A stretch of DNA of 64,000 nucleotides. It comes from Pseudomonadota bacterium. Lineage in GTDB: Bacteria; Pseudomonadota; Gammaproteobacteria; Steroidobacterales; Woeseiaceae. The notes under the pieces are model-generated. The model saw only the letters and a program-made list of their open reading frames with translations, was not told the DNA's origin and searched no databases. The translations under genes and the position numbers were made by a program. Each line of letters begins with the position of its first letter. The first letter of the stretch is position 1. Of the stretch, positions 49,568-55,032 are shown one piece after another. The DNA lies in NCBI GenBank assembly GCA_027621915.1, contig JAQCAD010000012.1, forward strand, positions 1 through 64,000, written 5' to 3'.

Positions 49568-50216
49568 ATGAGGCGAGCAGCGAGTTTTTTAATTCCGGTG
49601 ACGTTGATCACGTTGTATTACGCGTTCTGGGCAGGTTTACTTGCCGTTCCTGTTGGTGAAATTTCCGGCGATTAACGAGTTTTTCCCAATCGGGGGTCTG
49701 GGTGATCTCGCCGTAAGAAACATCGATAATTTCGAACCAATATACTCAAGCGCGGAGGAAACCGTACTTTCTCCGTATGGACCGGTGAAACTGGCCTGCG
49801 CAAGTCTGGGTGCAGCCATCTTGATGGTTCCCATTTCCTGGGTGTACTTCATTACCAGTCGGTCCAAGGAGGTCGATCAGTCCTTCGTGCAAACAATCAT
49901 CGTCATGCCGGTCGTTGTCACCGGTATTTCAACGATCGTTCTCAACAGTATCGCGCTGGCCTTCAGTCTCGCGGGAATCGTTGCCGCGGTACGCTTTCGT
50001 TTCACGCTCGATCAACCATCACATGCAATGTATATTTTCGTCGCGATCAGCATCGGACTGAGCGCCGGCATCGGCGCGCTGGGAGTCACGGCGGTGATTT
50101 CTGCTGTATTCGTATACACCAACCTGATTATCTGGAAGCTGGAGTACGGCAAGATACTTTCCGGTCCATTCTTTTCCATGCTGACCAGGCGCGACAGAAC
50201 TGACGACGAATACTGA
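49568..50216 (+). pseudogene. DUF4956 membrane protein with an apparent frameshift
   Basis: The main frame (in frame from about 49641 to 50216) is a clear DUF4956 protein. It has FPAINEFFPIGG, then VPISWVYFITSR, SFVQTIIVMPVVVTGI, and the hallmark SLAGIVAAVRFRFTLDQPSH. It lacks an ATG and the expected first helix. That helix is encoded just upstream in another frame, from ATG 49568 with AGGA before it (MRRAASFLIPVTLITLYYAF...), which stops at 49675. One extra base near 49645-49665 would explain the break. Alternatively translation starts at TTG 49641. In the family such proteins accompany CotH and VTC-domain genes. Confidence 0.75.
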
Positions 50217-50218
50217 TT

Positions 50219-51052
50219 TTGAGCGATTTACGTATCGCAGCTGCTGTATTTTTCGGACTTTCCGCCGCGGCGTGCCAGTCTGAACAGACCGAATCCGGCG
50301 GGCCGGACGACTTCGTCCAGTGGACTCTCCCCGATAAACTAAGGGAGATTTCGGGCCTCGCGCTGTCACGAGACGAACGTCTGTTTGCGATCACTGACGA
50401 GGAGGCGATCGTCTACGAAATCGATTATCGCAATGGCAGTTTTGTCAAAGCATTCGCGATTGGCGAACCAACCGTTCGCGACGATTTTGAAGGAATAGCC
50501 GTTCTCGGCGACAAAATCTGGCTGATGACAAGCAAAGGTCGACTGTATTCCTTTGATGAGGGCAGAGACGGCGAAAGAGTCGCTTACGAACGAGTAAAAA
50601 CGGGTCTCGGTGACGAATGCGAATTCGAGGGACTGTCCGCCGACCCGCTGACCGGAACGTTGCTGCTCGTTTGTAAGGAATCGCGGAAAAAGTCCAAGGG
50701 ACTGCGAATAATTGAATGGTCTGTGACAAACGCCGATAAGCAAGCTGTGATCGAAATCGACCTCGATACCGAAGCCATGACAAAAGCGATCGGCAAGAAA
50801 CGACTGAATCCCTCGGGCATCACAATTGATCCCGCAACGGGCAATCGCATCGTCGTTGCCGGCAGGCAGCGTGCGGTTTTCGAGCTGTCGCGTGACGGCC
50901 GTTTGCTAGACGTTATAATGCGGCTCGACAGCAAACGACACCGCCAGAGCGAAGGTATTGCAATAACCGCCGACGGGCGTTTGCTGCTGGCTGATGAGGC
51001 AAACAACGGGCCTGCAAGGCTGGCTGTCTACACGCCAAAAAAAGGAAAATAA
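50219..51052 (+). CDS. SdiA-regulated-type beta-propeller lipoprotein
   Basis: This 277-residue protein starts at TTG, two bases after the DUF4956 gene. A lipoprotein signal (lipobox LSAAAC at about residue 19) is followed by a propeller-like domain: REISGLALSRDERLFAITDEE, DFEGIAVLGDKIW, CEFEGLSADPLTG and LNPSGITIDPATGN. Repeated glycine/aspartate strands of this kind match the SdiA-regulated family (PF06977-like). It should be anchored to the membrane on the periplasmic side. Its ligand is unknown. Confidence 0.75.
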   Translation: MSDLRIAAAVFFGLSAAACQSEQTESGGPDDFVQWTLPDKLREISGLALSRDERLFAITDEEAIVYEIDYRNGSFVKAFAIGEPTVRDDFEGIAVLGDKIWLMTSKGRLYSFDEGRDGERVAYERVKTGLGDECEFEGLSADPLTGTLLLVCKESRKKSKGLRIIEWSVTNADKQAVIEIDLDTEAMTKAIGKKRLNPSGITIDPATGNRIVVAGRQRAVFELSRDGRLLDVIMRLDSKRHRQSEGIAITADGRLLLADEANNGPARLAVYTPKKGK

Positions 51053-51055
51053 AGA

Positions 51056-52051
51056 GTGAATGACGTCGGAAATATAAGCGGCAACAGTGGACGCACGCTT
51101 GTGTTCGTGCATGGGCGAGACTTCAAGCCGCGCGCAGAAGAATTTATGGACTTGAGTGTCGCGGCATTGGCAACGGGCATAAGTCGTGACTACCCGCAGT
51201 TGAACGATCAACTACATGCTCTGGACAAGCGCCTGGCATATTACGGTGATTTGACCGACGAATTCCTGGTTGGAAAAGGCCGGCGTTTTGACGAAACGCT
51301 GGATATTGGCGACCGTCGAAATGCGTTGATTCAGCTGAAAGCAATCGAAAAGAAAAAGAACTTTGGCGTGAATCGCTATGACCGTTTGCCGGGCAAGACG
51401 GCAATGGGTGAATTCGCTGCCGACGTGTTCGCTCCGGTGCTGGGTAAACTCGGGTTTTCGAACAAGCTTCTCGCGCATGTTGGCGCAGATCTTGTCGAAT
51501 ACTGGAATAAGAAAAGCGAGTTTCCACACCAGATTCGAGCGCGTGTTCGATCGGCTATTTGTGACGCCCTGGACGGGAATAACCAGGTGCTGCTCATCAG
51601 TCATGGAACCGGATGTATCGTAGCGTACGACGTGCTGTGGCAGCTCTCGCACGTCCCTGAGTTCGCCGACACCTATCAAAGCCGCAAAATCGACCTGTGG
51701 TTGACGCTCGGGGCGCCTTTGGGCGATTCCATGGTTCGCAAGCGAATTCTGGGCGCAAGGAGAAAGGGCGTAACAAAATATCCGTCGAATGTCGTCTCGT
51801 GGCACAACGTCTCAGCCGAAGACGACTTCGTCAGCCATGACAACACGCTGGCCGATGACTACAAAGAAATGCTGAAGCTGAAGCTAGTAAGTTGCATAAG
51901 GGATTATCGTATTTACAACATGGCCGTCCGCTACGGGAAATCAAATCCCCATAGCTCGCTTGGCTATCTGGCACACCCGCGTACCGCGCAGATCATAGCC
52001 GACTGGTTGCAGCAGGCCCCTGTCGAGCAGGTGCCTACGAGCATCTTTTAA
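51056..52051 (+). CDS. Alpha/beta-hydrolase-fold protein lacking the nucleophile
   Basis: The 331-residue cytosolic protein begins at GTG three bases after the preceding gene. TLVFVHGRDFKP resembles the oxyanion-hole strand, and VLLISHGTGCIVAYDVLWQL corresponds to the nucleophile elbow of alpha/beta hydrolases. Where these have Ser (H-S-x-G), Gly is present. The later segments IDLWLTLGAPLGDS and WHNVSAEDDFVSH supply an Asp and a His in the expected places. It may be a binding protein or use another residue. The 3' end is convergent with, and overlaps by 17 bp, the CotH-like gene. Confidence 0.65.
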   Translation: MNDVGNISGNSGRTLVFVHGRDFKPRAEEFMDLSVAALATGISRDYPQLNDQLHALDKRLAYYGDLTDEFLVGKGRRFDETLDIGDRRNALIQLKAIEKKKNFGVNRYDRLPGKTAMGEFAADVFAPVLGKLGFSNKLLAHVGADLVEYWNKKSEFPHQIRARVRSAICDALDGNNQVLLISHGTGCIVAYDVLWQLSHVPEFADTYQSRKIDLWLTLGAPLGDSMVRKRILGARRKGVTKYPSNVVSWHNVSAEDDFVSHDNTLADDYKEMLKLKLVSCIRDYRIYNMAVRYGKSNPHSSLGYLAHPRTAQIIADWLQQAPVEQVPTSIF

Positions 52052-53076
52052 GCAGGTTTTTCTCGGTCAAGTTCTCGTTGGAAACGATCTCGAAGAATTC
52101 GTCCAGATATTTGGTCACTGAATCCCGACTCGATTTGTCGAAGTCCGGAATTTCATCCATCAGGGCGTAGATTTCCGCTTTCTTTGACAAAATATGGGCA
52201 ACAGAATCAGGGAGGTGTTTGCTGTTTTCGCAGCGACCCCGATAAAGCCGCGTACGCACGCTCCGCAATTTTAATTGCGGATTGGGTTCTGCGTAAGGGG
52301 CATCAACCAGGCCGGAAAAATCGAAATCATAGGGTACCGGACTAACGAGGTCACCATTCGAGAACGGAACAGAATTGTGGCAACACTTCTCTCCTTCCGG
52401 ACCCCGGATCATCGAGTAATCTGTGTTTCCGATCAGATATTCGAAGAGGCTAATCAGGTTTGTCTCTTTGCGATCGAGTTGGAAATAACTCAGCTCTATC
52501 GTGTCCAGGGCTGTCAGCCCAAGCCGCTCTCCCACTTTGTCTTCGTCTTCGATGACGAAGCCATACTTGATCATAGGCTCGTCATTTTTCTCGTTGTTAA
52601 CGTAGGTGATTCGCAACAGCTTGGTGCGAAAGCTCTTGTCCGTCAGCGTCCGAAGAATTCGATAGGCCATGTATTCCCGCAAAACGTACTGTTCATTTTT
52701 CGGACTCTTATTTTGACAATGCGTTACAAGCTTGAGCTTGTCTTCGCCCCCGAAAATCGTTCCCTCGATTTGCGCGGTCTTGAAGTTCAAACGAACCGGA
52801 GGAAAATTGCAGGTGCTCTTTTGTCGGCGATACCTTCCGCGCGCGCATCTTCAGGTCGAACGATTGTGCTAATCCCGCCTCATCGGTAAAGCCGAAAGTG
52901 CCGTCGAGGTAGTCAATATCTGACCTAACACGCGAGAAAGTCGTCAATGGCGCCACGATTTGCACGTCGAGAACGTCGTCGCTGTCAAAAAGCGACTGTG
53001 CATTGGAGTTCAGCGTCATTCCGAGGAACACCAGTGGCAGAACTGAGGTCAAATTTACGGTGTGTGGGCGGGTCAT
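52035..53076 (-). pseudogene. CotH-like kinase-fold protein with a frameshift at a CG repeat
   Basis: Two frames combine into one exported protein of about 345 residues. The N-terminal frame starts at ATG 53076 (GGGAG upstream) with a signal peptide cut near NSNAQ and runs to SFDLKMRAR. The second frame continues as GRYRRQKSTCNFPPVRLNF, then FGGEDKLKLVTHC, LIGNTDYS and VPYDFDFSGLVDAPYA. The last three have the CotH/HipA-like kinase pattern (Asp in NTD, Asp in YDFD). The frame changes at the alternating CG run near 52838-52847; two missing bases there would explain it. It is either a real inactivation or a sequence error. Confidence 0.75.
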
Positions 53077-53187
53077 GATCGCGTGAGACTCCCTGTTGTT
53101 ATTTAGTGGCTGCAGTAATATTAGCATGCGAAAATCAAAACATTGCTCGTCTGGACCTGGCGATCGACGCAAATTCGGGAGATTTAC

Positions 53188-55032
53188 ATGAAAAAGATTC
53201 GGCGAATATCACTGCAGGTCTTAGCCTGTCTGCTTCTGCCGGTTCTTTTGTCCGCCTGCGCATTGGCCGAACAATACCGATGGACGGGCGTTGAGCGCGT
53301 CGTCGCGATGAGTGATCCGCACGGGGCATACGACGCGATGGTACGGACACTGACGAACGCAGGAGTCATTGACGAAGAGTTCTCATGGTCTGGTGGTGAG
53401 ACCCACCTTGTGATTACTGGAGACCTCCTGGATAGAGGTGCGGACTCACGCAGAATCATGGACCTCGTGATGAAACTGGAATCAGAAGCGTCCGCGAAAG
53501 GGGGCATGGTTCACCTGACACTCGGTAATCACGAGGTTATGAACCTGGTTGGCGATGTGCGCTATGTGTCGCGCGGCGAGTATGCCGCATTTTCAGACGA
53601 GGAATCGGCAGACGAACGCGAAGCCTGGTTTCAGCGATATCGTGCCGCGATGGCGCTGGAACGTGAGCCGGTGCCTGACGAGGATGCACTTCGCGCTACG
53701 TTTAACGAGGCCCGGCCGCCTGGGTTTTACGGGCATAGACAGGCCTTCGGCAGTGAGGGGAAATACGGTCGCTGGTTGTTGCAAAAACCGCTCGTGGTGG
53801 TGGTGAATGACACCGCCTTTGTGCACGCCGGTTTACCGCCGATGGTCGCAGATTTCACGCTCGAACAGCTCAACAATGAACTGGGCTCGCAAGTTGGTGA
53901 TTACCTGCGACATCTCGAGGTGTTAAACAGGGCGGGACTCATCGACCCGGCAACGGGATTTTACGATCATGTGAATATTGCGGAGCAGCTTGCCGCAGAT
54001 CCTGCGGTGGCGGACGAGATTCGTGTTGCGTCGTTGAAGGTTGTCGAGCTTAACGATGCCGCCGTCCATGATCCGAACGGACCCATCTGGTATCGCGGTA
54101 CGGTGAGCTGCAGCGTTTTGAGTGAAGGAGATGTTCTGGCCGCGTCACTCGCGGCACTTGGTGCGAACCGACTGGTCATCGGCCATACGCCGACTGTCAC
54201 CCGACAGGTATTACAGCGATTCGGTGGACGCGTAATCGAGATCGATACCGGAATGTTGAAGTCCTCGTACAATGGTTCGGGCAACGCACTGGTTATCGAA
54301 GGAGACAGTGTTTCCGTCGTACATGAAAATGGCAGCGGTTCGACATTGCCGATACCGCATCCGCGCCGGGTCGGTCGGCGCTCCGAAAGTCTGAGTGACG
54401 AGAATCTCGAATCGTTACTGTCATCCGGACAGATATCCTCGACCGCGACTGATGCATCCGGGCGCACTATCGTGAAACTCACCAGCGGCAACGACATGGT
54501 GCAGGCAATCTTCACCAAAGGTCCGCGAGGGAAGGGACCCAATACAGAGCTTGCGGCGTATCGACTTGATCGGCTGTTGCAGCTCAACATGATTCCGATA
54601 ACCGTGGTACGCGAGGTGGACGGCAAGCAGGGCACGCTGCAGTTTTTGCCGGACAACATTCAGACGGAAGCGATTCGTGCGGTCAACGGCAGGGGTGGCA
54701 GCGCGAATTGCCCTCTGCCACGGCAATGGAATTCGTTGTATGTCTTTGATGCGCTGGTATACAACGACAGCCGCACTCCAAACAGTATGATCTACGACAC
54801 GGGCGACTGGCAGCTCATGTCGATAGGTCACCCCGATACTTTCGGCACCAGGCGCGGTCGTCCGGCGTACCTGGCGACCATTCCGCTTGAGATCACCGGT
54901 GCCTGGGTGGAAGCGCTCTCGTCGTTGTCGGACGAGGTCCTCGCAGCTAATTTTGCGGACGTACTCGACGAAAAGCGAATCAACGCACTGGCGACAAGGC
55001 GTGATCTGCTGATCGAGCAGGCAGCACAGTAA
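53188..55032 (+). CDS. Lipoprotein PPP-type phosphatase fused to a kinase-like domain
   Basis: The 614-residue product has a lipobox (LLSAC) near residue 23. Residues 40-370 form a PPP-family metallophosphatase with all motifs: MSDPHGAYD, ITGDLLDRG, TLGNHEVMN, FVHAGLPP and VIGHTP. Residues 415-600 resemble the protein-kinase-like domain of CotH/Fam20/HipA proteins: VQAIFTKG (Lys), ELAAYRLDRLL (Glu), ITVVREVDGKQGTLQF, YVFDALVYNDSR and NSMIYDTGDWQLMSIGH. The usual metal Asp before His is Gly here, so kinase activity is doubtful. GGGAG precedes ATG 53188. It is divergent from the CotH-like gene. Confidence 0.8.
   Translation: MKKIRRISLQVLACLLLPVLLSACALAEQYRWTGVERVVAMSDPHGAYDAMVRTLTNAGVIDEEFSWSGGETHLVITGDLLDRGADSRRIMDLVMKLESEASAKGGMVHLTLGNHEVMNLVGDVRYVSRGEYAAFSDEESADEREAWFQRYRAAMALEREPVPDEDALRATFNEARPPGFYGHRQAFGSEGKYGRWLLQKPLVVVVNDTAFVHAGLPPMVADFTLEQLNNELGSQVGDYLRHLEVLNRAGLIDPATGFYDHVNIAEQLAADPAVADEIRVASLKVVELNDAAVHDPNGPIWYRGTVSCSVLSEGDVLAASLAALGANRLVIGHTPTVTRQVLQRFGGRVIEIDTGMLKSSYNGSGNALVIEGDSVSVVHENGSGSTLPIPHPRRVGRRSESLSDENLESLLSSGQISSTATDASGRTIVKLTSGNDMVQAIFTKGPRGKGPNTELAAYRLDRLLQLNMIPITVVREVDGKQGTLQFLPDNIQTEAIRAVNGRGGSANCPLPRQWNSLYVFDALVYNDSRTPNSMIYDTGDWQLMSIGHPDTFGTRRGRPAYLATIPLEITGAWVEALSSLSDEVLAANFADVLDEKRINALATRRDLLIEQAAQ

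Follow-up and report, generated by a model that had tools for sequence, protein, structure and literature searches.

A predicted envelope gene cluster combining a CotH-like kinase, a phosphatase–pseudokinase fusion and a DUF4956 membrane protein in a Woeseiaceae-like bacterium

In Gram-positive bacteria, Pel operons have genes for CotH, a polyphosphate polymerase and a DUF4956 protein alongside (PMC7112168), and in Streptococcus intermedius Pel-dependent aggregation is reduced when the CotH gene or a membrane neighbor is mutated (PMC12345266). Here we describe a cluster of five adjacent genes (positions 49568 to 55032) in which a CotH-like gene and a DUF4956 gene are found together with genes for a phosphatase fusion, a beta-propeller lipoprotein and an alpha/beta-hydrolase-like protein. 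The cluster lies on contig JAQCAD010000012.1 of assembly GCA_027621915.1, a draft, metagenome-derived genome (3.56 Mb, 101 contigs). Its closest relatives with a name belong to the Woeseiaceae, Gammaproteobacteria of marine sediments. The window is the whole stretch analyzed, 64,000 nt. Many of the genomes with which it was compared are also metagenome derived. A preliminary description of the window had proposed the five genes, and all of them were recovered at about the same coordinates. It had also stated that DUF4956 genes accompany CotH and polyphosphate polymerase (VTC-domain) genes, which the two studies above bear out and the DUF4956–polyphosphate kinase (PPK) fusions described below extend.

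A literature search on CotH, DUF4956, Shelph and SCO1664, with most subscription journals and preprints outside its reach, found no description of the cluster. The CotH–DUF4956 linkage is already known in Gram-positive bacteria, and this kinase/phosphatase version of it appears to be undescribed. Outside the inner membrane, ordinary energy molecules are scarce, and to our knowledge it is unsettled how bacterial kinases located there obtain their phosphoryl donor. The gene set described here pairs a predicted exported kinase with a predicted exported phosphatase across Gammaproteobacteria and Alphaproteobacteria. From the linkage, the folds and the active-site patterns we predict, with a probability of about 0.5, that the cluster is an envelope module for reversible phosphorylation with a membrane partner that supplies the donor. 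The observations behind this prediction are gene linkage, folds, conserved catalytic sites and the loss of catalytic residues in two domains.

The CotH-like kinase, the phosphatase fusion and their linkage

The CotH-like gene is located on the minus strand (positions 52035 to 53076). A structure model of a close orthologue, built with 64 sequences, reached a mean predicted local distance difference test (pLDDT) score of 94.2. When VIA-align was used to re-align Foldseek's own candidates, the model matched the Bacillus cereus CotH kinase 5JD9 with a Z score of 20.1 (root mean square deviation of 3.2 over 266 residues), and the next match outside CotH scored 12.9. Foldseek itself had no CotH among the best 50 matches listed for this model (best E value, 7e-3). 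The Pfam CotH profile (PF08757) matched 8 of the 64 members, at best with an E value of 1.2e-6, and neither the first orthologue nor the fragments in the window, for which Pfam and NCBIfam gave no significant match at all. Because the family profile found no match among PDB sequences, the CotH identity rests on the structure and on the Pfam matches of some members. The kinase fold expected in the preliminary description was thus recovered as a confident CotH-fold model. Across the 64 members the catalytic residues are nearly invariant (Lys in 63, Glu in 64, Asp in 63, Asn in 64 and the second Asp in 64), as are the motifs N-x-D (63/64), Asn (64/64) and DFD (64/64), which are also present in the window fragment. 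Cysteines 94, 125, 286 and 349 are found in at least 63 of the 64 members and two further cysteines are common. Both this protein and the neighboring phosphatase have signal-peptide-like segments. In view of its fold, the protein can be regarded as a CotH-family kinase, with an exported location suggested by signal peptides and cysteines and an activity predicted from the catalytic residues.

The phosphatase fusion gene (positions 53188 to 55032, plus strand; alternative start TTG at 53143) is transcribed divergently from the CotH-like gene, and the stretch in between (53077 to 53187, with start codons at 53076 on the minus and 53188 on the plus strand) presumably contains two promoters. The Pfam Metallophos profile (PF00149) matched the fusion with an E value of 1.3e-9, and a full-length model of the window protein (17 sequences) had a mean pLDDT of 90.6. 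The first half (53290 to 54354) superimposes on the Shewanella phosphatase 1V73 with a Z score of 33.5 and about 31% identity, and when the whole fusion model was compared with the PDB the matches were filled by phosphatases. The window copy has the full set of metal ligands (D-x-H, GD-x2-DRG, GNHE, H and GH), which is kept in all 44 fusions adjacent to CotH-like genes. The C-terminal half (54355 to 55029) matched the NCBIfam family SCO1664 (TIGR03843) with an E value of 2.5e-5 and 23.8 bits, below the cut-off of 172.4; intact relatives reached up to 49.4 bits (E value, 4e-13), still below this cut-off, and weakly matched the PI3/PI4 kinase and HipA_2 profiles. In the window copy, Thr, Ser, Ser and Gly replace the catalytic Lys, Asp, Asn and Asp, and the nucleotide-binding Lys and the glycine-rich loop have also been lost in the kinase-like half of the cluster. 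None of the 44 CotH-adjacent fusions keeps the complete catalytic set, whereas all 16 intact fusions, which keep Lys, Asp, Asn and Asp, are found away from CotH. To judge from these residues, the C-terminal half in this cluster is a pseudokinase and not a second kinase. Of the phosphatase–kinase-like fusion proposed earlier, the phosphatase fold and the homology of the second half to SCO1664/HipA therefore stand, with the second half catalytically dead; a second active kinase in the fusion was rejected, as the catalytic residues are lost.

The cluster occurs with the same gene order in about 20 relatives. Within the Woeseiaceae-like family, the flanking genes (deoC, aldehyde dehydrogenases and a sugar kinase; a GMC oxidoreductase and xanthine dehydrogenase) are conserved too, so that conservation within this family is plain inheritance. 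In the families f8, f16, f14, f5 and f6 the flanks are different and the core of CotH-like, DUF4956 and phosphatase genes is kept, sometimes with the hydrolase and propeller genes. Apart from the family-wide flanks, the recurrent neighbors among 80 named loci were DUF4956 (35, by profile match), the phosphatase (29), the hydrolase (14) and the propeller (9). We also counted co-location within 8 kb of a CotH-like match in 196 genomes of the order, with the expected numbers taken from a simple uniform model of random placement. DUF4956 genes fell within this distance in 48 of 66 cases (about 0.7 expected) and phosphatase fusions in 39 of 73 (about 0.5 expected), and 30 of the 33 strong matches to the cluster-type hydrolase did so as well. 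The Alphaproteobacteria Qipengyuania, Marinicaulis and, in another order, Kordiimonas have a CotH-like gene, a stand-alone Shelph phosphatase that lacks the kinase-like half, DUF4956 and in some cases the propeller gene. In Qipengyuania and Marinicaulis, the kinase and phosphatase genes overlap. A phylum-wide sample of 398 genomes held a single CotH-like match besides that in the genome of the window, which is too sparse for co-occurrence. The genes cluster beyond chance: their order is kept in about 20 relatives, and membership is kept across families and classes despite different flanks. The recurrent neighborhood anticipated in the preliminary description is indeed seen in other genomes.

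CotH-like paralogues are abundant in the family, with up to eight matches per genome (G611, G593 and G034), and many of them are accompanied by DUF4956 alone or are solitary. CotH-like loci that resemble the Proteobacterial ones were also found in two metagenome-assembled genomes titled Klebsiella pneumoniae (L125) and Bifidobacterium breve (L140), which are probably mislabeled or misbinned.

Candidate membrane partners and a possible mechanism

The DUF4956 gene (positions 49568 to 50216, plus strand) is interrupted near its start, and the remaining open frame (49641 to 50216) matches PF16316 with 32.7 bits (cut-off, 30.6). The intact orthologue in the relative G007 has about five hydrophobic segments. 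In two Gemmatimonadota loci (L110:10960-13773 and L111:4777-7512), directly after the CotH-like gene, DUF4956 forms the N-terminal part of a protein that continues as a complete PPK1; these proteins of 912 to 938 residues are 63% identical to each other. Clustering of the neighbors of the Proteobacterial loci did not return a polyphosphate polymerase as a recurrent neighbor, and the PPK1 fusion was seen in Gemmatimonadota only.

A second type of membrane partner may be a gene of the ATP/ADP translocase (TLC) family with a C-terminal He_PIG domain, which in families f4, f7 and f11 lies tail to tail with phosphatase–kinase fusions (L227, L230, L231, L233, L234, L243 and L244). The kinase half is intact in most of these fusions. 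The TLC-like genes matched PF03219 with 29.7 and 23.1 bits (cut-off, 21). Out of 27 strong TLC-like matches in the order, eight had a phosphatase fusion at most 2.5 kb away (0.04 expected) and three had a CotH-like gene at most 8 kb away, counts that include the loci used for building the transporter profile. In genome G556 (L237:601-3210), a single open frame combines a TLC/MFS-like transporter, a hydrophobic segment and a CotH-like domain whose lysine is replaced; it is the single known example. Tentatively, we suggest that CotH-type exported kinases might be served by dedicated membrane partners: by DUF4956, which in some phyla is fused to PPK1, with polyphosphate, or by a TLC-type translocase, which one genome has fused to CotH, with a nucleotide. 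We further suggest that the matching exported phosphatase with its dead kinase domain might reverse the reaction.

The two remaining genes of the cluster are also on the plus strand. The SdiA-regulated-type beta-propeller lipoprotein (positions 50219 to 51052), of a phytase-like superfamily, matches PF06977 (E value, 2e-11; 44 bits; cut-off, 21) and PF13449 (E value, 1.3e-6) and has a weak candidate lipobox, AAAC. The alpha/beta-hydrolase-like gene (51056 to 52051), which is convergent with the CotH-like gene and overlaps it, encodes a protein with no significant match in Pfam or NCBIfam. It had been described as nucleophile-less, which is correct: at the nucleophile position of G-x-S-x-G, Gly replaces Ser (SHGTG in the window) in 30 cluster members including that of the window and Cys in 4 further ones, whereas the 5 non-cluster paralogues have Ser. 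The Cys-type cluster hydrolases (L048, L064, L066 and L128) could, by sequence, be active cysteine hydrolases. Because the hydrolase has neither a signal peptide nor a membrane segment, four of the five products, not all five as first proposed, are predicted to be membrane bound or extracytoplasmic.

In the mechanism that we propose, the exported CotH-family kinase with its conserved cysteines would phosphorylate an extracytoplasmic target. The neighboring exported Shelph phosphatase would take the phosphate off again, with its fused pseudokinase half as a docking or regulatory domain. DUF4956 would act on the donor side, where its most likely role is to pass polyphosphate, or a different phosphoryl donor, through the inner membrane or to present it there. 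Binding or scaffold subunits may be provided by the propeller lipoprotein with its phytase-like fold and by the hydrolase that lacks its nucleophile, the latter on the cytoplasmic side. A common substrate, the donor and all activities of the cluster are what we infer here, and the location is predicted from signal peptides and cysteines. The periplasmic phosphorylation/dephosphorylation system suggested in the preliminary description is supported, since the families do cluster and the CotH-like protein does have a kinase fold; its function is a prediction. As the kinase or its partner is fused in relatives to a polyphosphate kinase or to an ATP/ADP-translocase-like transporter, the donor question can be tested in culturable isolates such as Qipengyuania. 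The one type of phosphatase–kinase fusion, with live or dead kinase halves, provides a natural series.

Alternative explanations

Several observations weigh against the reversible-phosphorylation module. Thirteen more fusions have a dead kinase half and were not recorded as CotH adjacent. Ten of these belong to a single clade of paralogues in the family of the window, and at least one lies on a short contig beside DUF4956. In a tree of the phosphatase half, loss of the kinase residues and adjacency to CotH both cluster by phylogeny and represent few independent events, and for this reason the correlation between a dead kinase half and CotH adjacency is less strong than the counts of 44 and 16 would imply and holds at the level of lineages. 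Only 41 of the 94 CotH-like copies are near a phosphatase, so the majority are not. Finally, we know of no demonstrated transport function for DUF4956.

A first alternative concerns the window's genome only. Alignment of the DNA with two relatives showed a 2-base deletion at about 52836, which splits the CotH-like gene into two reading frames, and such an alignment together with the change of frame showed a 1-base insertion at about 49643 in the DUF4956 gene. Both frameshifts had been overlooked in the earlier sequence-only reading. With the kinase and DUF4956 genes frameshifted, this copy is probably in decay, if the shifts are not errors of the assembly. The chances are about even that the cluster is a pseudogene remnant here, with the CotH-like and DUF4956 genes inactivated and the phosphatase left without its cognate kinase. 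A screen of 48 window genes against G007 (38 against the relative G004) flagged the CotH-like gene alone; the shift in the DUF4956 gene escaped because it is too near the gene start. The further CotH-like paralogues of this genome are intact, as are the frames of the orthologues in the same genus except for one that carries a stop codon. On the other hand, the assembly is metagenome derived, so both shifts could be sequencing errors, and the other three cluster genes are fully open. The remnant explanation is limited to this genome and is compatible with an envelope module elsewhere.

It is also possible, although we doubt it, that the cluster handles phosphate or polyphosphate and does not operate a protein switch, the substrates of its exported enzymes being polymers, sugars or lipids that carry phosphate. 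The CotH-like enzyme would then phosphorylate a polysaccharide of the cell surface or a lipid, with phosphate recycled by the phosphatase and the propeller. The DUF4956-PPK fusions and the phytase-like propeller would fit this, as would an alkaline phosphatase gene (L144:11112-12200) that adjoins a stand-alone Shelph gene and a CotH-like gene in one Bacteroidales genome. Lipid and sugar kinases likewise have folds close to that of CotH, but a protein kinase is by far the best fold match (Z score of 20.1 versus 12.2 for lipid kinases), and among phosphatases the closest solved structure carries the annotation of a protein phosphatase.

Another explanation, which we consider rather unlikely, starts from an ancestral kinase–phosphatase fusion from which a separate CotH kinase took over catalysis, so that the pseudokinase half would be a remnant or a sensor regulating the phosphatase. 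The distribution of live and dead halves with respect to CotH is in keeping with such a takeover, and the Alphaproteobacteria entirely lack the kinase-like half. Against it, the phosphatase-half tree is unrooted with respect to the direction of evolution, and the loss of the nucleotide-binding Lys and of the glycine-rich loop disfavors nucleotide sensing.

A neighborhood held together by common descent in one lineage, with no functional link, would fit the flanks shared within the Woeseiaceae-like family but is very improbable and largely contradicted, as other families and classes keep the same genes despite changed flanks and order and as fusions of DUF4956 and of CotH exist.

Comparison with described systems

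TLC ATP/ADP translocases (PF03219) are related to the cluster through family genes that adjoin intact fusions, predicted transporters with He_PIG that lie outside the window's own cluster. With SCO1664 (TIGR03843)/HipA_2 kinases the fusion shares a homologous C-terminal half, in which Lys, Asp, Asn and Asp are retained by the intact relatives, whereas the cluster copies are below the family cut-off and have lost the catalytic residues. The phosphatase half has the fold and the ligands of Shewanella-like (Shelph/SLP) PPP phosphatases (1V73); in the cluster, however, a kinase-like domain is fused to it, and its gene is linked to that of a CotH-like kinase. The kinase itself has the fold of Bacillus CotH (PF08757; 5JD9/5JDA), with its conserved catalytic Asp, Asn and Asp and its relation to secretory-pathway kinases. 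It differs in its low identity (about 12%), Gram-negative host, signal peptide, conserved cysteines and phosphatase partner, and it is mostly below Pfam detection. The Gram-positive Pel accessory genes have in common with the cluster a CotH-like secreted kinase beside a DUF4956 membrane protein and a phosphate theme, whereas the Proteobacterial loci, with no recurrent polyphosphate polymerase, have an exported phosphatase, a propeller lipoprotein and a dead hydrolase.

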